64,000 nucleotides of DNA from Oceaniglobus trochenteri (lineage in GTDB: Bacteria; Pseudomonadota; Alphaproteobacteria; Rhodobacterales; Rhodobacteraceae): contig NZ_JACNMM010000002.1 in assembly GCF_020529025.1 (NCBI RefSeq), positions 62,001-126,000 of the forward strand, written 5' to 3'. Numbering within the stretch: position 1 is the stretch's first letter; every line of letters starts with the position of its first letter. Shown here piece after piece: positions 5,523-44,745 of the stretch. The translations under genes were made by a program, and so were the position numbers. The notes under the pieces are model-generated. The model was not told where the DNA came from and did no database searches. It was given only the letters and a program-made list of their open reading frames with translations.

Positions 5523-7334
5523 ATGCAAAAGCCCTTTTTCGACGCGAACGCCCGGTCCGGCAAAGAGTTCGGCAATCTCCCCGAGTGGGATCTGAGCGAC
5601 CTTTACCCAGCCCCCGACGCCCCCGAACTGTCGCGGGACATGAAGTGGCTTGAAAAGGCCTGCGCCGATTTCGCCGCCACCTATCAGGGCAAACTGGCCG
5701 ATCTTGACGCCGCCGGCCTTCTGGCCTGCGTCCACGCCTACGAGGCGATCGACCTGATCGGCGGGCGCATCATGTCCTTTGCCGGCCTGCGCTATTACCA
5801 GCAGACCACCGACCCCGAGCGCGCGAAATTCCTGTCCGACTGCCAGGACAAGATCACCGATTTCACCGCCCCGCTGGTGTTCTTCTCGCTTGAGATCAAC
5901 CGCATTCCCGACGCCCAGCTTGATGCGCTGTTTTCCGGCAATGACGGTCTGGCCCGCTATCGTCCGGTGTTCGACCGGCTGCGCGCCATGCGCCCCCACC
6001 AGTTGTCGGACGAGCTTGAAAAATTCCTGCACGATCAATCGACCGTGGGCGCCGCCGCCTGGAACCGCCTGTTCGATGAAACCATCGCCGGTCTGACCTT
6101 CGACATCGACGGCGAGGAACTGGGCATCGAGGCCACGCTGAACCTGATGACCGACACCGACCGCACCCAGCGCGAGAAAGGCGCACGCGCCGTGGCCGAG
6201 GTGTTCGGCAAGAACATCGCCCTGTTCGCCCGGGTCCACAACACCCTGACGAAAGAGAAAGAGATCGAGGACCGCTGGCGCAAGATGCCCACGCCCCAGA
6301 CCGGGCGCCACCTTGCCAACCACGTCGAACCCGAGGTGGTCGAGGCGCTGCGCAATGCCGTCGTCGCCGCCTATCCGCGCCTGTCGCACCGTTACTACGA
6401 GCTCAAGCGCAAGTGGCTGGGCCTTGAGACGCTTGAAGTCTGGGATCGCAACGCCCCCCTGCCCATGGAGCAGGACAAGACCGTCAACTGGGACGAGGCG
6501 AAGGCGATGGTCATGGACGCCTATTCCGATTTCGCCCCGCAGATGGCCGACCTGGCCGAACCCTTCTTCGACAAGGGCTGGATCGACGCGGGCGTGAAGC
6601 CCGGCAAGGCGCCCGGGGCCTTTGCCCATCCCACCGTCACCGACGTGCACCCCTATGTGATGCTGAACTACCTTGGCAAACCGCGTGACGTGATGACCCT
6701 GGCGCACGAACTGGGCCATGGCGTGCACCAGGTCCTGGCGGCGGAACAGGGCGAACTGCTGGCCTCGACCCCGCTGACCCTGGCCGAAACCGCCAGCGTC
6801 TTCGGCGAGATGCTGACCTTCCGCAAGCTGCTGGCCGCCGCCAAGACCAAGGCCGAGCGCAAGGTGCTTCTGGCCGGCAAGGTCGAGGACATGATCAACA
6901 CCGTGGTGCGCCAGATTGCCTTCTACGATTTCGAATGCAAGCTGCACGATGCCCGCCGCCAGGGCGAACTGACGCCCGATGACATCAACGCGCTGTGGAT
7001 GTCGGTTCAGGCCGAAAGCCTGGGGCCGGCGTTTACCTACATGGACGGATACGAAACCTTCTGGGCCTATATCCCCCACTTCGTCCACTCGCCGTTCTAC
7101 GTCTATGCCTATGCCTTCGGTGACGGCTTGGTGAACGCGCTTTACGCGGTCTACGAGGAAGGCACCCCGGGCTTCCAAGACAAGTATTTCGACATGCTGA
7201 AGGCCGGCGGATCGAAGCACCACAAGGAGCTTCTGGCCCCCTTCGGCCTTGATGCCAGCGATCCGGCCTTCTGGGACAAGGGGCTGTCGATGATCGAAGG
7301 CTTCATCGACGAGTTGGAAGCGATGGAAGACTGA
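5523..7334 (+). CDS. pepF: Oligoendopeptidase F, M3 family
   Basis: A 603-residue cytoplasmic zinc metallopeptidase of the M3/PepF family. The HELGH zinc motif is at residues 395-399, with the supporting glutamate downstream in the LAETASVFGEM segment. The start ATG at 5523 sits just after a purine-rich GACGAGG. It lies 135 bp after the ligase and ends at a strong GC-rich hairpin shared with the convergent oxidoreductase. The family hydrolyses short peptides, about 6-20 residues, during peptide turnover. Full length, nothing odd. Confidence 0.92.
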   Translation: MQKPFFDANARSGKEFGNLPEWDLSDLYPAPDAPELSRDMKWLEKACADFAATYQGKLADLDAAGLLACVHAYEAIDLIGGRIMSFAGLRYYQQTTDPERAKFLSDCQDKITDFTAPLVFFSLEINRIPDAQLDALFSGNDGLARYRPVFDRLRAMRPHQLSDELEKFLHDQSTVGAAAWNRLFDETIAGLTFDIDGEELGIEATLNLMTDTDRTQREKGARAVAEVFGKNIALFARVHNTLTKEKEIEDRWRKMPTPQTGRHLANHVEPEVVEALRNAVVAAYPRLSHRYYELKRKWLGLETLEVWDRNAPLPMEQDKTVNWDEAKAMVMDAYSDFAPQMADLAEPFFDKGWIDAGVKPGKAPGAFAHPTVTDVHPYVMLNYLGKPRDVMTLAHELGHGVHQVLAAEQGELLASTPLTLAETASVFGEMLTFRKLLAAAKTKAERKVLLAGKVEDMINTVVRQIAFYDFECKLHDARRQGELTPDDINALWMSVQAESLGPAFTYMDGYETFWAYIPHFVHSPFYVYAYAFGDGLVNALYAVYEEGTPGFQDKYFDMLKAGGSKHHKELLAPFGLDASDPAFWDKGLSMIEGFIDELEAMED

Positions 7335-7341
7335 AACGGCA

Positions 7342-7373
7342 CCGCCCCCCGCCCTGATGAAGGCGGGGGGCGG
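7342..7373. terminator. Bidirectional hairpin between convergent genes
   Basis: A perfect 12-bp inverted repeat (CCGCCCCCCGCC and its complement) with an 8-nt loop lies between the convergent pepF and oxidoreductase stops. No T-run follows, so it may act by stem strength, as an mRNA 3' stabiliser, or with Rho. Confidence 0.6.
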
Positions 7374-7382
7374 GCCGCCGGA

Positions 7383-8357
7383 TCAGATCTCCTGACCGGC
7401 TTCGAAGGTCATGTCGATCATCCGCTGGGTGCCGCGCGAAAACTCCAGCGGGCAGGCATAGGGCGTCCCGTCGCGCGCCGCCTTGCTGAAGGCTTCCACC
7501 TGCAACACGTACTGGTTCACCTCCGGAAAACGGTATGTCGTGACCGCCATTCCGGCGCCTTCCACCTGCACCTCAGCCTGGCCAAAGACGCCTGAATTGA
7601 AGGGTGTGGTCAGGGTCATTACGCCGGCGTCGCCGTGAAAGGTCATCCGCTGGTTCGGGAACATCCGCATCGACGTGACGCAGTTGTAGGTGAAACCGGG
7701 GAAATCGGCGCTGACGTGGGCAAAGGTATCGACGCCGTTTTCAAGCCGCAGCTTCGCGGTGACGGTGTCGGGTTCGGCGCCGGTCACGAAACGGGCCGAC
7801 CCGAAGGTATAGACACCGATGTCGCGCAACCCGCCGCCGCCGGTTTCGGGGCGGTTGCGGATGTTCTGGGTGGCGGCGCCGTTGTTGTAACAGAACATGC
7901 CGTCAACATGGATCAGCCGGCCGATGGCCCCTTCGGCCAGAAGATCGCGCGCCTTGTGCCACTGGGGGTGATGGACGATCATATAGGCCTCGGCGGCAAG
8001 GCGCCCTGCCCCGTCGCGCGCCGCGACAAGATCGTCAAACTCGGCCTCGTTCATGGCGATGGGCTTTTCGGTCAGCACATGCTTGCCGGCCGCCAGCGCC
8101 TTTTTCGTCCATTCGACATGCAGGTGATTGGGCAGCGGAATATAGACGGCATCAATCGCGTCACTGGCCAAAAGCGCGTCGTAGCTGTCGAAAACCTGAA
8201 GATCGGGCGCGAAGGCCAGAAACCCCGCCGCCTTGTCGGCCGAGGATGTGGCCAGCCCCGCCAATGAGGCACCCCGCGATGCGTGGATCGCGGGGGCCAT
8301 GTGGTTCAGTGCAAAATTCGCGGCACCAAGGATGCCCCAACGGATGGTTTCTGTCAT
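7383..8357 (-). CDS. Gfo/Idh/MocA family oxidoreductase
   Basis: A 324-residue NAD(P)-dependent oxidoreductase. The N-terminal Rossmann motif is GILGAANFA (residues 8-16); the family EKP signature occurs in VLTEKPIAMN, followed by the C-terminal alpha/beta substrate domain with the GGGLRDIGVY segment. I chose the ATG at 8357 because it gives the normal MTETIRWGILG family start; a longer in-frame extension to 8462 has no domain content. Substrate specificity, a sugar or cyclitol in this family, cannot be read from sequence. It is convergent with pepF and downstream of rpoH on the same strand. Confidence 0.88.
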   Translation of the reverse strand: MTETIRWGILGAANFALNHMAPAIHASRGASLAGLATSSADKAAGFLAFAPDLQVFDSYDALLASDAIDAVYIPLPNHLHVEWTKKALAAGKHVLTEKPIAMNEAEFDDLVAARDGAGRLAAEAYMIVHHPQWHKARDLLAEGAIGRLIHVDGMFCYNNGAATQNIRNRPETGGGGLRDIGVYTFGSARFVTGAEPDTVTAKLRLENGVDTFAHVSADFPGFTYNCVTSMRMFPNQRMTFHGDAGVMTLTTPFNSGVFGQAEVQVEGAGMAVTTYRFPEVNQYVLQVEAFSKAARDGTPYACPLEFSRGTQRMIDMTFEAGQEI

Positions 8358-18603: not shown

Positions 18604-18631
18604 TTTTCAACCAAGCGTGAAAGGCGAAACG

Positions 18632-19150
18632 ATGACGAAGCTCTACTACGGCACCAAGGCGATCTTCGCACTGGCGATGACGCGCCAGGAATACAACGAT
18701 TATCGCGGCTGGGACCTGCCCGGCGACGAAGAAGGGTTGGACCCCGGTTTCCTTGTCGAGTACCTGGACGGCGGCGCGAAAAACCATCCCGATCATGACG
18801 GTTACATCAGCTGGTCGCCCGCCGATGTATTTGCCCGTGCCTATCAGCCCGCAACAGCCATGAGTTTTGGTCACGCCATCGCCGCCATGAAGGACGGGGC
18901 AAAGGTCGCGCGGGCAGGCTGGAACGGGAAGGGCATGTGGATCGCGCTGACACCCGGATCGGTGGTCGAGGCACGACACGCAAGATGCGGTCATGTCGCG
19001 GCCAAGCGCGCGGACGAACTGGGCGATCTCGAAGCGGAAATCGAGCTGCTGCCCCATATCGACATGCGCGCGGCCGACGGATCGCTGGTTATCGGCTGGC
19101 TTGCCTCGCAGACGGACATGTTGGCCGACGACTGGCAGATCGTGCCCTAG
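18632..19150 (+). CDS. Tad2/DUF2829-domain protein (Thoeris anti-defence family)
   Basis: A 172-residue protein. The C-terminal part (about residues 70-172) carries the DUF2829 core: MSFGHAIAAMKDGAKVARAGW, NGKGMWIALTPG, and the closing IDMRAADGSLVIGWLASQTDMLADDWQIV. DUF2829 includes Tad2, which binds the cyclic signal made by the Thoeris ThsB enzyme and so blocks Thoeris immunity. The N-terminal about 65 residues (MTRQEYNDYRGWDLPGDEEG... YISWSPADVFARAY) form a second module often seen fused to this domain in phages. An insert of about 25 residues splits the usual core. Early position fits an anti-defence role. The ligand-binding activity is inferred from the family. Confidence 0.8.
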   Translation: MTKLYYGTKAIFALAMTRQEYNDYRGWDLPGDEEGLDPGFLVEYLDGGAKNHPDHDGYISWSPADVFARAYQPATAMSFGHAIAAMKDGAKVARAGWNGKGMWIALTPGSVVEARHARCGHVAAKRADELGDLEAEIELLPHIDMRAADGSLVIGWLASQTDMLADDWQIVP

Positions 19151-35839: not shown

Positions 35840-36283
35840 ATGTGCACCCCGATCATAGCAGTGGCACTTTCGGCAGCGGGTGGTATCGCCGGTGCGATCC
35901 AGCAGCGCAACATCGGCAAGGCCAACGCAGCCATGGCCCGTGCCGAGGCCGAGCAAACCCGGGAAATCGGGCGCTACAACGAAACCAAGGCACGCACCCG
36001 GATGCAGCAGTTGATGGCGCGCCAACGCGGCCAGTTGGCCGCCCGTGGCGTTCGTCTCGACAGCGCGACAGCCCTTGACCTGGGCGAACGGGCCGGGCGC
36101 GAAACTTCGGTCGAGGGCAGCGCGCAACGGTTCAACGCCGACAGCCGCGCCACGGCCCAAAGCAACGAAGCGGTGCTGAGCGAATACCGGGGCAAGATGG
36201 GTTTCATCACCGGCATTGCCCAGACCGGATCGCGGGCACTGACGCAGTCGCTTGACCTCTGGCCCGGCCTGGCGGGGGCCTGA
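35840..36283 (+). CDS. Internal virion protein B-like (T7 gp14-like)
   Basis: A 147-residue protein starting MCTPIIAVALSAAGGIAGAIQQ, a glycine-rich hydrophobic N-terminus followed by a long charged helix (NAAMARAEAEQTREIGRYNETKARTRMQQLMARQRG). This is the pattern of gp14-like ejection proteins, which insert into the host outer membrane during DNA ejection. It begins 2 bp after the nozzle gene. Confidence 0.78.
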   Translation: MCTPIIAVALSAAGGIAGAIQQRNIGKANAAMARAEAEQTREIGRYNETKARTRMQQLMARQRGQLAARGVRLDSATALDLGERAGRETSVEGSAQRFNADSRATAQSNEAVLSEYRGKMGFITGIAQTGSRALTQSLDLWPGLAGA

Positions 36284-36285
36284 CG

Positions 36286-38319
36286 ATGGCATTGATCGTT
36301 CCCGAAGCGCAGACGCCATTCTCACCGGTTCAGCAACCCCGGATCAGCCATGACATGCCGGGCATTGGCGACGCGCTTTCGACCGTCGGCAATACCCTCG
36401 TCGCGATCGAGGGGGCCAAGGTGCAGCGCCGGCGCGAAGGTGCGATGCGCGAAGCTCGGGTCCAGACCATCGAACGCCTGGGCGAGCTGAACACCCGGTA
36501 CCAGCAGGACACCGATTACAACGGTCTGTCCGACCGCTTTCAGGCCGATGCCGACCAGGCCTTCGCCAGCATTGCCGAAACCCTGCCCCCCGACCTGCGC
36601 GAACGATACATGCAGGACGCGCGCGAAACTCTGGCCCCCCAGAAACAGGCCTTCGCCCGCCTGGAATACGGGCTGGAGCGTCAGCATTCCCGGGTTAGTG
36701 GCCAAGCCGCGTTGCGCACCTACGTTAACGAAAGCGCAAATGCGCCGGACGAAGATAGCCGTCTGGCGATCATGAGCGAAGCTGCGGCCTTTCTGGCAAG
36801 CGCAGTGGAAGACGGCACATACACACCCGAAGAAGCCGACGCAATGTTGCAGAAGTTGGCAACTGACAGCGACTTTGCTCTCGCGCTTGGTATGTCGATC
36901 GAAGATCCTGATGTGTTCTTGGAGCGCCTTGACGATGGCGCTTTTCCAAATATCGATCCCGTCACAAAAGAGCGCTTGCAAATCGGAGCCAAGGCGGAAA
37001 TTTCCCGCCGCGATGCCCAGGCTGCAAAGCAGCTGGATGTCGAAGCCAAGGCGGCACAGAAAGCCCAAGCTGCAACCGTCGATGACGCCATTGCAATCAT
37101 TGAAAACGGTCGGCCCTATACCGGCCTGGCCGAACTTCAGGCACAGGTCAAAGGCACCCCGGACGAAGCACGTCTGAACGCCACCTTGCGAGCCCAGCAG
37201 GTGGCCGGGAACTTTGCTGTCCTGTCTCCCGCCCAGATGGCGGCCGAGATCGCGCAGATCGCAAAGACCGCCACCAACGACCCCGCCGATATCGCCCGCC
37301 TTGAACGCCTGCGCGCCATGCGCAGCAATACGATCAAGAGCCTGGAAAACGACCCGCTGTCTCACGCCAAAGAGCGCGGCATCACGACGCTGGGGCCTGT
37401 GGACTTCGACGACAGGGCGACAGTCCGAGATCGCATTTCCACGGCCGAGGCGGTTGCCGAGGACGTGATGGACGGATTGCCGCCATCGCCGATCCGGTAC
37501 TTCACGAACGACGAACGCGACAGCCTGGCCGCCATCGTCCAGGCCGACAATGCCGATGCCAAGCTGTCCCTGGTCAACAACCTGGTCAATACCTTCGGCC
37601 CGCGCGCCCCGGCCGTTCTTGCGGAGATCGGGGCGTCGGATCCGGTGTTCGAGCTGGCAGGCAACCTCGTGTCCCAGACCGGCCAGGTCGAGGTGGCGCG
37701 CACCCTTTTGAACGGGCAGCGCCTGTTGGCCGAAGGACAGGGCGCCAAGGTCAAGAAGGTGGATCGCGATGCGGTCCGCGCCAGCGTGGCCGAGATGTTC
37801 CCGCGCAGTCTTCACGACCGCTTCCCACTTCTGCTGGAAGCCGCCGATGCCTATTACGCCGTATCCGGCCAGATGGCCAACCCCGAGGCCGAACCCGAGG
37901 CAAGGCGCCGGTCCTACATGAAGGCAGTGCAGGCGGCGGCCGGCCAGGTCACCCGGAACGGGCGCACCTATGGCGGCATCCAGATGGTGAACGGACGCCA
38001 GACCCTTTTGCCCGCCACCCTGGACGCCGCCACCGCCGAAGCCTTGCTGGAGAAGGCCAAGCCCGAGGACTGGGTAAAGGCATCGGTTTCGGGCGCGGCG
38101 CCGATGTGGGGCGGAAAGCCCCTGCCCGAGCTTTTCACTGGCAGGGCGGGGTCCGTACATCCCGGGCGGCTTGCCCTTGAGTACATCGGACGCGGCCAAT
38201 ACCTGGTGTCGATCCAGCGCCAGAACGGTGAACTGCGGTACCTGACCGATGACGCGATGCCCGACGGCAAGGCGCGTCTGTCCCTTGAGAGGCTGCTTGA
38301 GCTTCAGGAGGGGCGCTGA
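36286..38319 (+). CDS. Internal virion protein, T7 gp15-like
   Basis: A 677-residue, mostly helical protein (T7 gp15 has 747). N-terminal PGIGDALSTVGNTLVAIEGAKVQRRREG and long alpha-helical repeats fit the gp15-type ejection protein that forms the periplasmic channel. The stop overlaps the next ATG by one base. There is no enzymatic motif that I can see. Part of the gene around 36.7-37.1 kb is noticeably lower in GC than the rest. Confidence 0.75.
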   Translation: MALIVPEAQTPFSPVQQPRISHDMPGIGDALSTVGNTLVAIEGAKVQRRREGAMREARVQTIERLGELNTRYQQDTDYNGLSDRFQADADQAFASIAETLPPDLRERYMQDARETLAPQKQAFARLEYGLERQHSRVSGQAALRTYVNESANAPDEDSRLAIMSEAAAFLASAVEDGTYTPEEADAMLQKLATDSDFALALGMSIEDPDVFLERLDDGAFPNIDPVTKERLQIGAKAEISRRDAQAAKQLDVEAKAAQKAQAATVDDAIAIIENGRPYTGLAELQAQVKGTPDEARLNATLRAQQVAGNFAVLSPAQMAAEIAQIAKTATNDPADIARLERLRAMRSNTIKSLENDPLSHAKERGITTLGPVDFDDRATVRDRISTAEAVAEDVMDGLPPSPIRYFTNDERDSLAAIVQADNADAKLSLVNNLVNTFGPRAPAVLAEIGASDPVFELAGNLVSQTGQVEVARTLLNGQRLLAEGQGAKVKKVDRDAVRASVAEMFPRSLHDRFPLLLEAADAYYAVSGQMANPEAEPEARRRSYMKAVQAAAGQVTRNGRTYGGIQMVNGRQTLLPATLDAATAEALLEKAKPEDWVKASVSGAAPMWGGKPLPELFTGRAGSVHPGRLALEYIGRGQYLVSIQRQNGELRYLTDDAMPDGKARLSLERLLELQEGR

Positions 38320-41300
38320 TGGCGACGATCTTCGACGACCCCCCGGAGCTGGCGTTTCACGATCTCCCCGAGGCCAGCGAGGGGCCGGAAACCGGCCTTC
38401 TGGGCGTGGCCGCTGCCGATTTTCAGGCCGAGGCCATCGACAGCAATTACTGGGCGTTGCGCCAGCGGCGCATCGCCGAGGCCAACGCCCGGGCGCTGAG
38501 CGATCTTGCCGGTGACGTTGCCGATGATCCTGACGCATGGAAGGCCAAGGCGGGCGACCGAGAGGACCGCGCACGTATGGGCTATGGCGGCATGTCAGTC
38601 GGAAACTACGTCGGCGATGTTCCGATCGACAAGGGCGGTGACAACGCCGCGATCCAGAAGCTTTTCGACGATCTGGAAATCATCCGCGAATTCGATCCGG
38701 GCCGGTTTGCGAATTACCCGTCCTCTTTCGACGAGCTGCAACGTCAATCCGCCGACCGCGTGCGCGACGAGCTGAACGAAGAACGCGCCGATGCCGAACG
38801 CCGGTCGAACAACCGTTCCGTAAAGACGTGGCAGGGCGGCGTTGCCGGGTTCATCGGGGCCGCGGGCGCCGCGATCACCGATGTCGAAGGGGTGGTCACC
38901 CTGCCCTTCGGCGCCGGTGCCGGGACATTGGCGCGACAGGTTTTGATCGAAGGCGCTCTGGGGGCCGGGTCGGAGGCGTTGAGCCTGCCCGCCCGCTATG
39001 CCCAGGCCGACTTTCTGGGCCGTGAGCGTCCGAGCGCCGTGGCCCAGTTGACCTTCGGTGCGGCCTTCGGTGGCGCGCTGCCCATCGGCATCCGCGGTGT
39101 GAAGCTGGGCGCCAATGCCCTTACCAAGGCAGGCCGAGTTCGCAATCGCGAGCTTCTGGCATGGGGAAAGCGCAAGGACGCCAGCCCCGAAGAGCGCGCG
39201 GCCGCCAAGGTTCTGGGCCGTGAAGAAGCGACCATCGACACCGCTCCGGACGGCACCGATGCCCATATCCACGCTGAAACCGTGGACGATGCGGAAACCG
39301 CAGTCCGGGCAGATGAGCCGGTGCAGGTTGTGCCGGGCGATGTGGTGCCCCCGTCCAGCGACAAGAACAAGCCCGGCGTTACCCGTCAGACCCTTGACCT
39401 GATCCGCAGTGTCGAAGCCCCCGGGGGATATGACCAGGTCTATGGCGGCATCGCCCCCCAAGACCTGCCCCCCAAGCCTCTGACCCAGATGACCGTGGCC
39501 GAGGTTTTGAACTGGCAGGATCGCATCGACGGCAAGTACAACTCGGAAGCTGCCGGCGGCTATCAGATCATGGAAGACACCCTGCGCGACCTGGTGCGCA
39601 GCGAAGGGTTGACCGGGGGCGAGCTGTTCGACGCCGCAATGCAGGATCGCCTGGCGATCGCGCTGATGCGCCGGCGCGGCCTTGATGATTTCCTGGCAGG
39701 CACGATCAGCGCCGAAACCTTCGGCAACAACCTGGCACTGGAATGGGCGGGCCTGCCCCGCGTGCGGGCATCGGATGCGCCGCTGATCCGCACGAAGACC
39801 ATCGGCACCAACGAGTTTTCGGCCCGGGGCGTGAGCGACGAGGCGTTCCGCGCCTACCGCGCGCTGGAAGGGATCACCGGGCGAAAGTTCAAGATCAACA
39901 GCGCCCACCGCGACCCCAAGCACAACGAAGACGTGGGCGGCGCGAACCAAAGCCAGCACATCCACGGCAATGCCTTCGACATCGATGTCAGCGATCTGAG
40001 TATTCCCGAACGCCAGCAGCTGATCGTACAGGCCCGGGAAGCCGGGTTTGGTGGTATCGGCGTGTACCGCACCGCGCTGCATTTCGACGTTGGCAAGGAG
40101 CGCGCCTGGGGGCCGTCTCACGGGGTCGAGACGGTGCCCGACTGGGCACGCGAGGCTGTGCAGCATCCTGTTACCCGTCCCCGCGCCGGGTCCAGCGCCT
40201 ATGAGGGGCACAACGGCAACAGCTCGCAGGTGTCGCCATCGCGCTTCATGGGTATCCTGACCCAGCGTGGCACCTATCGCCCCCTGACCGATGATGCCCG
40301 ATCGGCGGATATCTATTCGTTCCGGCCCGGTGAGCTTCGCACCGATGCCAGTGCCTACCAGTACAAGGAAGGCGGTGACGACAAGGGCGTGACCGACCGC
40401 CTGGCCAACGTGCGTGAATGGAACCCGCCGGCCGCCATCGGTGTGATGATCCATGAGCGGCTGGACGGTGAACGCTATATCGCGGACGGCCATCAACGGC
40501 TGGGCCTTGCGCAACGCCTGACGGCCGAGGGTGTCGAGGGGATCGAGCTGCAAGGGTTCGTTCTGCGCGAAGCCGACGGCTGGGGCGTGCCCGAAGTGCG
40601 AGCCTTCGCTGCCGTCAAGAATATCCAGGCCGAAACCGGCACCGCGCTGGACGCCGCCAAGATCCTGCGCGACCACCCCGAACTGGCCCATATGATCGAC
40701 CGTTCGCGTGGCTTTGTCGTTCAGGCTGACGGTCTGTCGCGCCTGTCGCCCGGCCCGTTCCAGGCCCTGATCAACGGCGTGATCCCCCAGAATTACGGCG
40801 CCATCGTCGGGCGTATCATGCCCGACGACGAGGAATTGCAGGCGGCTGCCATCGCGACATTGGCCAAGGCCGAACCCGCCAATGCCTTCCAGGCGGAAAG
40901 CATGGTGCGCGACATTCGCCGGATGGGGTTGGAGAAGCGCGCTGACGCGGCGCAGGGATCGCTGTTCGGCGAGGGCTTTGACTTGGGCGAAACCGCGATC
41001 AACGAGCGGGCGCGCGTGTTGGACGCGGCCCACAAGGAACTGAAGCGCGACAAGACCACCTTCGCCCGCCTGTCGCGCGAGGGCGAACGCATTGAGGGAG
41101 CCGGAAATGTCCTCGACACCGACGCAAACACCAGCCGTGAACAGCTCGCCCAGAAAGCCATCGAGCGGCTCATCATCCTTGCCGACGAACCCGGCCCGGT
41201 CCGGGACGCGCTCGACGCCGCAGCCCGGGCCGTCCGGGGCGGACAGCGCCTTGGACAGGCCGCCCAGGATGTCATCGACGCTATCACCAACCCGGATCGA

Positions 41301-41645
41301 ACGGATGGAGCGCGAGCTGATGCGCCAGGACCTGGCCGAACAGGCGATGCGCCGGCGGATGATACCGCGCTAGCGGAAGATCAGCTGGGAGAACCCGGCC
41401 CGGCGCTGACCGAACCCGATCTGTTCGGCGATCCGGTCGAAGGCCGCGGCGCCCTGGCGCAGGTGGATCAGATCGAACGCGATCTGCGCCATCGCATGGC
41501 GACGGATCCCGAGTTCGATGTGGACCTGGTCCAATACGACGACGACGGCAACGCCAGCAAGAAACGCCTGTCCGACATGATCGCCGAGTTTGGCGACGAA
41601 GCCAGCGACATCGAAAACCTGAAAACCTGCATGAGGACACCATGA
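38319..41645 (+). CDS. Multi-domain internal virion (ejection) protein with lysozyme-like, M15 peptidase and ParB-like domains
   Basis: A 1108-residue protein at the T7 gp16 position. A Gly/Ala-rich segment (about 170-235) may be membrane-active. A lysozyme-like domain follows at about 350-470 (IRSVEAPGGYDQVYGG, SEAAGGYQIMEDTLRDL). An M15-type zinc peptidase domain lies at about 500-595, with HRDPKH, SQHIHGNAFDID and the ALHFD ligand region. A ddrB-like ParB-superfamily domain lies at about 655-790 (YQYKEGGDDKGVTDRL, RYIADGHQRLGLAQRL, VKNIQAETGTALDAAKILRD). T7 gp16 has only a transglycosylase. The two cell-wall enzymes would open glycan and peptide; the ParB-like part would enter the cell with DNA. 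Domain calls are by motif. Confidence 0.8.
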   Translation: MATIFDDPPELAFHDLPEASEGPETGLLGVAAADFQAEAIDSNYWALRQRRIAEANARALSDLAGDVADDPDAWKAKAGDREDRARMGYGGMSVGNYVGDVPIDKGGDNAAIQKLFDDLEIIREFDPGRFANYPSSFDELQRQSADRVRDELNEERADAERRSNNRSVKTWQGGVAGFIGAAGAAITDVEGVVTLPFGAGAGTLARQVLIEGALGAGSEALSLPARYAQADFLGRERPSAVAQLTFGAAFGGALPIGIRGVKLGANALTKAGRVRNRELLAWGKRKDASPEERAAAKVLGREEATIDTAPDGTDAHIHAETVDDAETAVRADEPVQVVPGDVVPPSSDKNKPGVTRQTLDLIRSVEAPGGYDQVYGGIAPQDLPPKPLTQMTVAEVLNWQDRIDGKYNSEAAGGYQIMEDTLRDLVRSEGLTGGELFDAAMQDRLAIALMRRRGLDDFLAGTISAETFGNNLALEWAGLPRVRASDAPLIRTKTIGTNEFSARGVSDEAFRAYRALEGITGRKFKINSAHRDPKHNEDVGGANQSQHIHGNAFDIDVSDLSIPERQQLIVQAREAGFGGIGVYRTALHFDVGKERAWGPSHGVETVPDWAREAVQHPVTRPRAGSSAYEGHNGNSSQVSPSRFMGILTQRGTYRPLTDDARSADIYSFRPGELRTDASAYQYKEGGDDKGVTDRLANVREWNPPAAIGVMIHERLDGERYIADGHQRLGLAQRLTAEGVEGIELQGFVLREADGWGVPEVRAFAAVKNIQAETGTALDAAKILRDHPELAHMIDRSRGFVVQADGLSRLSPGPFQALINGVIPQNYGAIVGRIMPDDEELQAAAIATLAKAEPANAFQAESMVRDIRRMGLEKRADAAQGSLFGEGFDLGETAINERARVLDAAHKELKRDKTTFARLSREGERIEGAGNVLDTDANTSREQLAQKAIERLIILADEPGPVRDALDAAARAVRGGQRLGQAAQDVIDAITNPDRTDGARADAPGPGRTGDAPADDTALAEDQLGEPGPALTEPDLFGDPVEGRGALAQVDQIERDLRHRMATDPEFDVDLVQYDDDGNASKKRLSDMIAEFGDEASDIENLKTCMRTP

Positions 41646-42172
41646 CCAAAGCGACCAAGGACGACAAGACGACAGAAAGCAAATCGCCTGCCAGTGACGA
41701 TCAGAAGCCCGCTGATGCAGGTTCCGCCGCGAAGGCCGCAGAGGCCCCCGAGGCAACCAAGGGCAGCACAGAAGCCCAGCAGGCGCCTGCAAGCGGCAAG
41801 CCCGGTGCACAGGCTGCGACAACCGGCAAGCCGGATCAGGCCAGCACGAGCAAATCGCCTGACACGCCCGAAACGCCGGACGGACAGGTGAAGCCGACAG
41901 GGCCGCTTGAAAACCTCGCCGAAGCGATGATCGAAAACGCGCCCCGCCCCTTCCCCCTGGAGGAACTGAAGCGTGGCGCCCGCGCGCGGCGCGCGTCCTG
42001 GGCGCCGGGCTATGTGATCGTGCTGGGCACGAAGGGCAACCGGGGAAAGGTGACGCCCTGCTTCATGCAGTCGGGTTCGCGGTCGGGGATGATCGAGTGG
42101 AAGCCCACCGGGCTGTCGGATCTTCTGGCCGAAGATTGGGAAACCATTGGCGAAGGTCAGCCCGACGAATGA
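41642..42172 (+). CDS. Virion-module protein with C-terminal Tad2/DUF2829-like domain
   Basis: A 176-residue protein. Residues 1-90 are low complexity (Lys, Ala, Ser, Pro, Asp, Gln) and likely disordered. Residues about 95-172 read FPLEELKRGARARRASW, APGYVIVLGTKG, then MQSGSRSGMIEWKPTGLSDLLAEDWETI. This lines up with the DUF2829 core of the protein at 18632-19150 (AIAAMKDGAKVARAGW, GMWIALTPG, MRAADGSLVIGWLASQTDMLADDWQIV). It overlaps both neighbours by 4 nt within the ejection-protein operon. Being packaged and injected is a hypothesis from this position. Some DUF2829-like proteins may have other roles. Confidence 0.7.
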   Translation: MTKATKDDKTTESKSPASDDQKPADAGSAAKAAEAPEATKGSTEAQQAPASGKPGAQAATTGKPDQASTSKSPDTPETPDGQVKPTGPLENLAEAMIENAPRPFPLEELKRGARARRASWAPGYVIVLGTKGNRGKVTPCFMQSGSRSGMIEWKPTGLSDLLAEDWETIGEGQPDE

Positions 42173-44745
42173 GCATCCTGGACTGCATCCAGCGGGCAGT
42201 ATCGAAAGCCCCGGGTGACGGCGGGATCAGCCCGGCGCGCGCCCGGGCCTTCCAAAAACTGCTTGAGGATCGGACGGCAGAATACGCCCACCTTGGCCCC
42301 GGCGCCGAAATGGCGGCGGCCGAGGATGTCTGGGTGCAGATCCGAACCGATTTCCAGAAGCGTCGCCGGTCGAACCTGTTGCAGGCGCAGGCCAACATCA
42401 AGACGCTGGGCGATATCGCCGAATTCCGTGATGCCGACGGCACGGCCAATGCCGCACAGGCCATCCGCCAGAAACTGGAATGGGGGCAATCGGCGACCTT
42501 CGACAGCGCGTCGTCCCGTCGCGATGCCCTGATGGGTCAATACCGCCGGATGATCCAGGACTTCATTGGCGATCATGCGCGCAACATCATCGGCAGTATT
42601 CGCAACAAGGCCCGCCTGCCCGACATCGTGCGCGAGCTCCATGGCGAAGCCACCGGCAATCCGGCGGCGAAACAGGTGGCCGACGGAGTGCGCAAAGCGC
42701 TGGAACAGGCGCGGCTGGATTTCAACGCTGCCGGGGGCGCCATCGGCAAGCTGGCCGATTTCGGGCTGCCCCATTCCTGGAACCGGCACACCATGTTGTC
42801 GATCGATCCCGACCGAAAGGTGGCGCGCCAAAAGTGGACGGCGGACGTGGGCCAGCGCCTGGACTGGGACCGGATCGTGGATCACGACACCGGCAAGCCC
42901 TTTTCCGGTTCGTCACCTGCGGCGCGGCAGTCTTTCCTGGAGGAGGTTTTCGATACCATCACGGAAACCGGCTGGAACAAGCGCGAGCCCAGCGGCATGG
43001 CCGTTGGCAAATCCACGGCAAACCGGCGGTCGGACGCCCGCGTGCTGCATTTCAAGTCGGCAGACGACTGGATGGCGATGAACGAAGCGTATGGGCGCGA
43101 AGACCCCTTCACCGCAATCCTGTCGCACCTGGACAGCATGGCGCGTGACACCGCGCTGATGCAGGTGCTGGGGCCGAACCCGCAAGCGGGGCTTGAGTTC
43201 GCAAAGCAGACGGCGGCGAAGCTGGCCGCCGAACGCCCCTGGAAGCCCTCACGGTTCAACTGGAATGCGTGGAGGGCGAATGGCCTCAAGCTCTATTCCG
43301 ACCCGAGCAAGGAGGTGGTGGCTGCCGGAAAACAGTCACAGCGGATGCTGGACCTTTACACCGGTGCCGCTAATGCTCCTGAAATGGACGTGGTGGCCTC
43401 AGCATTCAGCGGGGCACGGCATTTCCTGATTGCGTCCCAACTTGGGGGCGCGATGCTTTCGGCCGTCACCGACGTGGGCTTCATGGGGCTGGCCAGCAAG
43501 CAGGTGGGCCTTGATGCCAGCAAGGTGATCGGGCGCCACGTCAAGGCCCTGGCATCGACCGGCCAGCGCCAGTTGATGGCGCGCGCCGGGATCGTCTTTG
43601 ACAGCGCGGCCAACGTCGGCGTCGCCCAGGCCCGCCTGATGGGCGACGCCTTTGGGCCGAAGAGCATGGAGCGGCTTTCGGAGTTCACCATGCGTGCGTC
43701 CGGCCTGACCGCCTGGACCGACATTGGCCGGGGCGCCTTCCGCCTGGAGTTCTACGGACTGCTGGCCGAGAATGCAGGCCGTGCCTGGGATGACATCGAC
43801 GCGCCGTTGCGCCAGATGGTCTTTGAGCGCCGGGGCATCACCCGCGCCGATTGGGATGACATTCGCAGTACCGCGCTGTTTCGTGACCAGGCCGACCCCG
43901 ATGCCAGCTTCCTGATCCCGTCCGACATTCGCCATCGCACCGACCTGGCGCCCGAGCGGGCGATGGACCTGTCGCTGAAGCTGGACGCCGCGATCCTTGA
44001 ACAGATGGAATTTGCCATCCCCTCGGCCAGCCTGCGCGGCCGCGCCACCATGCACGGCGGCGCTCCCGGCAGTCTGATGGGGGAATTGTCCCGGTCAGGC
44101 ATCATGTACAAGAGCTTCATGTTCTCGCTGATGTTCAACCAGCTGGGGCGCGCCCTCTTTCACCAGGTCAACGGCAGCCGTGCCGCCTATATCGTCGGAT
44201 TTGCCACGATCACCACCGTGGCGGGGGCGGTGTCCATGCAACTGAAGGAAATCGCCAAGGGGCGTGATCCGCGTGACATGACCGATCCGAAATTTTGGCC
44301 GGCCGCCGCGATCCAGGGTGGCGGCTTCGGCATCATCGGCGATTTTGTCTATGCCTCGGAAAACCGGTTCGGTGGTGGACTGGCCCAGACCATCGCCGGA
44401 CCGATGGTGGGTGCTGTCAATGACGGCATCTACCTGACCAACGACATCGTCAAGGCGCTGGCCTATCGCGACCAGAAGCACCGCGATCGCCTGGGCCGTG
44501 CATCGGTGAAATTCCTCGACCGTTTCTCGGGACCGACGAACCTCTGGTACACCAATCTGGCCCTGAACCGGATGCTCTGGGACAACCTTCAATCCTTCGT
44601 GGACAGCGACGCAGAAGCGGCCTGGCGCCGGGCCGAGAAGAAGCGTGTCCGTGAGTTCGGAAACGAAAGCTGGGCGCCCCCTGGCGGAGGCCTTCCTGAC
44701 CGCCTGCCCGATCCCTCTGCCGCTGTAGGAGCTGACCGCCCATGA
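42169..44745 (+). CDS. Large putative internal virion protein
   Basis: An 858-residue protein. The N-terminal half is helical and charged; the C-terminal half has hydrophobic, glycine-rich segments (FGATITTVAGAVSMQL-like region near 700 and AAAIQGGGFGIIGDFVY near 725) compatible with membrane contact during ejection. It resembles the C-terminal parts of very large ejection proteins in marine and alphaproteobacterial podoviruses. No enzyme motif seen. It begins by ATGA overlap with the Tad2-like gene and overlaps the tailspike start, so it is part of the same translational chain. Confidence 0.68.
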   Translation: MSILDCIQRAVSKAPGDGGISPARARAFQKLLEDRTAEYAHLGPGAEMAAAEDVWVQIRTDFQKRRRSNLLQAQANIKTLGDIAEFRDADGTANAAQAIRQKLEWGQSATFDSASSRRDALMGQYRRMIQDFIGDHARNIIGSIRNKARLPDIVRELHGEATGNPAAKQVADGVRKALEQARLDFNAAGGAIGKLADFGLPHSWNRHTMLSIDPDRKVARQKWTADVGQRLDWDRIVDHDTGKPFSGSSPAARQSFLEEVFDTITETGWNKREPSGMAVGKSTANRRSDARVLHFKSADDWMAMNEAYGREDPFTAILSHLDSMARDTALMQVLGPNPQAGLEFAKQTAAKLAAERPWKPSRFNWNAWRANGLKLYSDPSKEVVAAGKQSQRMLDLYTGAANAPEMDVVASAFSGARHFLIASQLGGAMLSAVTDVGFMGLASKQVGLDASKVIGRHVKALASTGQRQLMARAGIVFDSAANVGVAQARLMGDAFGPKSMERLSEFTMRASGLTAWTDIGRGAFRLEFYGLLAENAGRAWDDIDAPLRQMVFERRGITRADWDDIRSTALFRDQADPDASFLIPSDIRHRTDLAPERAMDLSLKLDAAILEQMEFAIPSASLRGRATMHGGAPGSLMGELSRSGIMYKSFMFSLMFNQLGRALFHQVNGSRAAYIVGFATITTVAGAVSMQLKEIAKGRDPRDMTDPKFWPAAAIQGGGFGIIGDFVYASENRFGGGLAQTIAGPMVGAVNDGIYLTNDIVKALAYRDQKHRDRLGRASVKFLDRFSGPTNLWYTNLALNRMLWDNLQSFVDSDAEAAWRRAEKKRVREFGNESWAPPGGGLPDRLPDPSAAVGADRP

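Follow-up and report, generated by a model that had tools for sequence, protein, structure and literature searches.

A strongly diverged second Tad2-family domain encoded between two ejection-type virion genes of a podovirus-like prophage in Oceaniglobus trochenteri

Tad2 (Thoeris anti-defense 2) proteins, with SPO1 gp34.65 (PDB 8sme) among those of solved structure, belong to the Pfam family PF11195, formerly DUF2829, and a review places the loop between strands β1 and β2 within their ligand pocket (PMC12043709). Tad2 signal sponges are homotetramers that bind gcADPR, His-ADPR, or cyclic dinucleotides and so block Thoeris or CBASS. Genes are named as anti-Thoeris candidates from this Pfam domain (e.g., PMC13299392), and the same 2026 paper describes the function of a rhizobiophage Tad2-like domain as remaining to be determined. 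For phage SpaA1, one DUF2829 gene (ORF7) is reported to lie between those for minor head and scaffold, and an adjacent pair (ORF60/61) at another place in the phage (PMC3398947). Other relevant precedents come from injected anti-defence proteins, which are reported to include T4 Ip2 and Ip3 (PMC12373910) and phage P1 DarA (PMC12810830); P1 DdrB is described as packaged, with DdrB-like ParB genes lying beside virion genes (PMC5512222). The podovirus genes for gp14, gp15, and gp16 are described in a review as clustered in a small operon (PMC8954989). Here we describe a gene of the Tad2 family located inside an ejection-type operon of a prophage and compare it with these systems.

The gene lies in a stretch of 64,000 nucleotides of O. 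trochenteri DNA (hereafter the window) at 41642..42172 on the forward strand (ATG at 41642, TGA at 42172, stop included), encodes a protein of 176 aa, and is referred to below as the late Tad2-like gene. Its product matches PF11195 with an E-value of 2.1e-9 and 38.2 bits (curated cut-off, 25 bits) over profile positions 7-72 of 73, the match covering residues 106-168 (41957..42145, forward strand) and ending in SDLLAEDWE; no other Pfam-A family matches the protein at E ≤ 1. With the late protein and the locus L213 excluded, a profile built on 53 Tad2-like rows gives the domain 35.0 bits, the best of 1000 shuffles reaching 8.9. Because many of the profile rows had been gathered by the DLLAEDWE pattern, the domain was also scored against the same 53-row profile with that end removed, and the remainder still reaches 13.8 bits against 4.6 for the best shuffle; hence the PF11195 match goes beyond the C-terminal motif, and a chance match through that motif alone is ruled out. 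The first-pass annotation, made from the letters alone, had proposed a second Tad2/DUF2829-like domain in this prophage, and these scores sustain that proposal. It had also aligned the domain by eye with the early Tad2-like protein of the same prophage: the shared family holds, and the direct pairwise match is weak when taken alone (BLASTP, 28 residues, 32% identity, E 0.001). The domain is preceded by the N-terminal tail of about 90 residues that had been described (residues 1 to about 95; 41642..41926, forward strand), which is of low complexity and probably disordered: residues 1-90 have 3% FILMVWY and an entropy of 3.25 bits, against 27% and 4.02 bits in the domain. The reading frame is intact, the invariant family residues R, W, D, A, D, and W are retained, and in the whole genome PF11195 is found at E ≤ 0.001 only in the early and the late Tad2-like genes.

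Both flanking genes are on the forward strand. The upstream neighbour (38319..41645, 1108 aa; 'gp15-like' by position) has M15 peptidase and endolysin-type segments and would be an ejection protein; its stop overlaps the start of the late Tad2-like gene in the tetranucleotide ATGA (41642..41645). The downstream neighbour (42169..44745, 858 aa; 'gp16-like' by position) matches phrog_684, a virion structural protein, with an E-value of 1.4e-148, has relatives in Pelagibacter phages annotated as putative internal virion protein, and starts within a second ATGA (42169..42172) that ends the late Tad2-like gene. A gp14-type internal virion protein gene belongs to the same operon (35840..36283, forward strand; phrog_418, 2.3e-14; Pfam T7_gp14, 1.7e-4, below the cut-off). 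With both ATGA overlaps read in the DNA and these PHROGs and Pfam matches in place, the earlier claims of 4-nt overlaps with both neighbours and of a second, separate Tad2-family domain inside an ejection-type operon are borne out. The operon also encodes a 677-aa protein (36286-38319) with nothing above the Pfam cut-off and a weak PHROGs match. Also in keeping with a podovirus-like prophage are a helix-turn-helix protein, an amidase, a match to a head-tail connector (1e-75), and an integrase match that stays below the cut-off. A scan of 41000-43000 for sigma-70-type promoters found none, which says little because shuffles give an expectation of only 0.3. PF18763, an injected ParB-type domain, has no match at E ≤ 1 in the upstream neighbour (38319-41645). 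In a second related prophage of the same genome (G000:C10:55407-59809; loci L287 and L039), the ORF upstream of the gp16-like gene carries ddrB-ParB PF18763 (1.5e-36), a domain not found in the prophage of the window.

The two neighbours adjoin or overlap with no gene between them in 18 of 25 related loci (15 with the cut L020 left out, and 10 from a further set, L026 being dropped as the window's own locus and L036-L038 as weak or short), and the late Tad2-like gene is therefore an insertion at this junction. In 11 of the 15 (L006-L008, L010-L016, and L021), the large upstream ORF runs directly up to or into the gp16-like gene, as it does in seven of the further ten (L027-L032 and L039), so that the second related prophage of this genome also lacks the gene; the other loci are uninformative or otherwise arranged (L009, which is cut, L017, L018 with a 180-nt gap, L019, L033, L034, and L035). 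The upstream proteins of the 18 loci, of the window, and of a viral record, G790, described below, fall into a single group when linked by BLASTP at E ≤ 1e-5; seven of the 18 are linked directly to the window's protein (L006, L007, L008, L010, L011, L021, and L032) and the rest via others. The 18 are not all independent: L007 is almost identical to L008, and L012 resembles L013. In none of the 25 loci is there a Tad2-like domain between the two neighbours, and PF11195 has no match at E ≤ 1 in the 16 records behind L006-L021. When a Tad2 profile that itself contained the late domain and L213 was run against 64 loci, among them the window, its copies, duplicates, and weak gp16 matches, the junction held a Tad2-like domain only in the window (with its copy L026) and in L239 and L242, which are one record.

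The other PF11195 gene of the prophage, a canonical one, is located in the early module about 23 kb upstream of gp16 (18632..19150, forward strand; PF11195, 4.2e-25; analysed as 18623-19147, with three extra residues ahead of the ATG) and has the loop GWNGKGMW. Its N-terminal domain of about 76 residues (18632-18859) gives separate matches to phrog_9467 and phrog_32732. In a tree of 60 rows, built on few columns and with an unsettled bootstrap and 27 open forks, the early protein groups with L064, L066, and L073 (support 93/78, not starred), and the late domain stands apart, in no starred set, its end branch of 4.41 exceeding that of every other row; a caution attaches to the late row and L213, both long branches that meet in the tree. 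We reject a recent duplication of the early gene as the source of the late domain, given this branch and the placement of the early protein elsewhere.

The divergence extends to the putative ligand site. The motif W-N-G-K-[GN]-M, which we infer to be the β1-β2 pocket loop, occurs in each of the seven distinct solved sequences of the Tad2 family that a profile search recovered. At this position the late domain has W-A-P-G-Y-V (SWAPGYV replacing GWNGKGM), along with one extra residue between the W and the C-terminal D. Among 156 collected Tad2-like ORFs of at least 60 aa, W[NDHS]G is kept in 138, in a set that is biased by the way it was gathered and contains near-copies and at least one doubtful frame (L141). 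The further suggestion of the first-pass annotation, that the protein binds Thoeris signals, is not supported in view of both the replacement of the W-N-G-K loop by W-A-P-G-Y and the host, in whose genome PF08937 (the ThsB TIR) was not found; that domain is present in 29 of 295 genomes of the family. PF11195 is present in four of the 295: G218 and G222, which have it together with PF08937, and G248 and the present genome, which have PF11195 only, these numbers being too small to test. Of 23 other gp16-bearing genomes found, 13 were examined, and three have a PF11195 gene, always on the gp16 contig and upstream of gp16 (by about 19 kb in G737, 24 kb in G785, and 9 kb in G714).

Tentatively, and with a confidence that stops a little below even, we read the late gene product as an accessory Tad2-family protein of the late operon that has a remodelled site and acts in the infected cell, a role for which entry into the virion would be unnecessary. 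An accessory gene has been inserted between two adjoining ejection-type virion genes of a podovirus-like prophage; its product joins a low-complexity tail to a Tad2-family domain that has diverged strongly. The overlapping starts and stops may couple its translation to that of its neighbours, and its synthesis would be late. It might act in the cytoplasm late in infection, when the virion proteins present can set off host alarms, and its remodelled site might recognise a protein partner or a small signal, in either case not one of the classic Thoeris signals. This reading draws on the PF11195 match with its shuffle controls, the direct contact of the neighbours in most related loci, the tandem genes of G790 and the Tad2 genes at other virion-operon junctions described below, and the intact frame with its invariant residues. 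The loss of the loop and the longest branch also fit a non-sponge or a decaying protein, and the host genome shows no PF08937.

The first alternative, which we consider rather unlikely, is that the Tad2 fold has been reused without a signal pocket and now serves the ejection proteins as a small partner, a plug, or a chaperone, with the tail tethering it to the product of a neighbouring gene. A Tad2 fold of the late domain is itself probable, mainly on the strength of sequence similarity. The structural model, computed from an alignment of 55 Tad2-like rows, has a mean pLDDT of 76.6 and a pTM of 0.61; in BFVD, a set of predicted viral structures, the best seven of 903 rows have probabilities of 0.98-1.00 and TMq of 0.45-0.56, six being named Tad2-like and one nameless. 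At E ≤ 0.001 there are no matches among the 903 rows of BFVD (best E, 1.9e-3) or the 566 of the PDB, and no Tad2 appears in the best 50 of those 566. Against such reuse, no virion protein of this fold is named among the best 50 rows of either the PDB or BFVD, and with 18 of the 25 related operons having no gene at this place, the ejection apparatus works without the late Tad2-like gene. In its favour are the overlap of the gene with both ejection-type genes, the two further PF11195 genes at the same junction in G790, and the absence of the W-N-G-K loop, so widely kept as W[NDHS]G in the collected ORFs, from all three of these junction genes.

The IMG/VR record G790 (39,115 bases), from a distant podovirus, has two tandem short PF11195 genes (2.5e-10 and 1.1e-12) in an insert that occupies 6970-7675, reverse strand, of locus L239 (G790:C1:6000-20000). 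The order is gp15-like, the two PF11195 genes (85 and 64 aa), a small gene of about 91 aa, and gp16-like, with starts that overlap the preceding stop or come one base after it. The small third gene has no match in Pfam, PHROGs, or PADLOC, neither PF11195 gene has the W-N-G-K loop, and the gp15-like protein shares 39% identity with that of the window over residues 665-1027. Separate insertions and old descent may each account for the two occurrences, the 60-row tree leaving these rows open. A scan with the first G790 domain recovered only its own record, and one with the second recovered seven loci including its own. The window and G790 late proteins found nothing by tblastn in any of the six others. 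Four of these six were read: L283 and L284 lie amid small non-virion genes, L286 lies, by eye, near tail-spike-like and lysis-like genes, and in L281 a virion context was not seen. With no general virion link in these four, we rejected the idea of the G790 domains as representatives of a virion-linked subfamily. At 3836-4141 of L283 there is a 102-aa ORF that by eye comprises two Tad2-like halves in one protein.

An improbable second alternative is that the late gene is a leftover of mosaic exchange, a passenger either decaying or carried neutrally. Consistent with this, it has been seen in a single genome and combines the longest end branch of the 60 rows with a lost loop. Searches with the late protein yielded no match in the sequences of the PDB, in NCBIfam, or in PADLOC, one weak phage record (E 0.7; the C-terminal part used by itself gave 15 at E up to 10), six plasmid matches at E 0.05-0.3, none in viral contigs, and a match in one of five other genomes of the genus (E 0.0039, residues 61-139); no close relative usable for a test of purifying selection was found in phages, plasmids, viral contigs, or the genus. 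The intact frame, the precise overlaps, the retained invariant residues, and the similar arrangement in G790 argue against a passenger.

Location among virion genes is not rare in the Tad2 family. In a search with the early domain, a Tad2 gene lies between relatives of this prophage's terL and portal in 14 of the 80 loci listed out of 182 matches (L041-L050, L059, L060, L062, and L071); in L066 one lies between gp11 and the gene that follows capsid, and in L073 one lies just after gp16. The WNGKGM loop is present in 15 of these 16 virion-operon loci, L062 falling outside the checked set. Since both canonical Tad2 genes and the SpaA1 DUF2829 gene occur at junctions of virion operons, position is weak evidence for packaging. 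A sponge that travels in the virion alongside the ejection proteins, enters the cell with the DNA, and captures host alarm signals ahead of early expression, as put forward in the first-pass annotation, is distinctly improbable: its place in the operon, the similar arrangement in G790, and the injected anti-defence precedents of T4 Ip2/Ip3 (PMC12373910) and P1 DdrB (PMC5512222) speak for it and the last keep virion carriage in play, against which stand these junction genes of canonical Tad2 and the SpaA1 gene between head genes, the lost pocket loop, and the early canonical Tad2 that the prophage already owns.

A bolder form of this proposal, which we hold to be a long shot, is that proteins of the Tad2 fold with an altered pocket have come to lie between ejection genes repeatedly among podoviruses, here with a disordered tail and in G790 as a tandem pair, to be packaged, delivered at entry, and deployed to neutralise a host alarm signal that classic Tad2 does not bind. 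If true, such a protein would be a pre-emptive, virion-delivered signal sponge; the sponges known to us are made after phage entry. Searches of open-licence PMC literature, judged by titles and abstract openings, listed no paper on a virion-carried Tad2. If a sponge did travel inside the particle, the counter-measure would reach the cell ahead of any phage transcript, which would allow a direct test of how events are ordered in signal-based immunity. Even if it is not carried, the presence of a Tad2-family domain without the common loop at one ejection-operon junction of two distantly related phages would point to functions of the family beyond the binding of Thoeris signals, a wider role that matters because anti-Thoeris candidates are named from the Pfam domain.

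Compared with the solved Tad2 proteins such as SPO1 gp34.65, the late domain shares PF11195 and keeps the order of invariant residues, and differs in having WAPGYV for WNGK[GN]M, an extra residue between the W and the D, a tail of about 95 residues, and a place between virion genes. With the early Tad2 it shares the Pfam family and the prophage, whereas the canonical loop, the early module, and an N-terminal domain of its own (phrog_872 family) belong to the early protein alone. The G790 genes resemble it in their junction, their overlapping starts, and the absence of the W-N-G-K loop, and differ in being two short genes with no long tail and with a further small gene after them. The late gene lies beside virion genes, as do those of injected anti-defence proteins, in a placement that is common to many Tad2 genes not known as packaged; to our knowledge, the folds of T4 Ip2/Ip3 and P1 DdrB/Dar are unrelated to Tad2. 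For T4 Ip2/Ip3 and P1 DdrB, injection or packaging is reported, together with action on restriction; the likeness to the DdrB-like ParB genes is that of late genes adjoining virion genes (PMC5512222). The SpaA1 ORF7 gene is, as reported, likewise a DUF2829 gene inside a virion operon with more copies in the same phage (PMC3398947), but it belongs to a siphovirus head module rather than an ejection operon and, at 88 aa, has no long tail.
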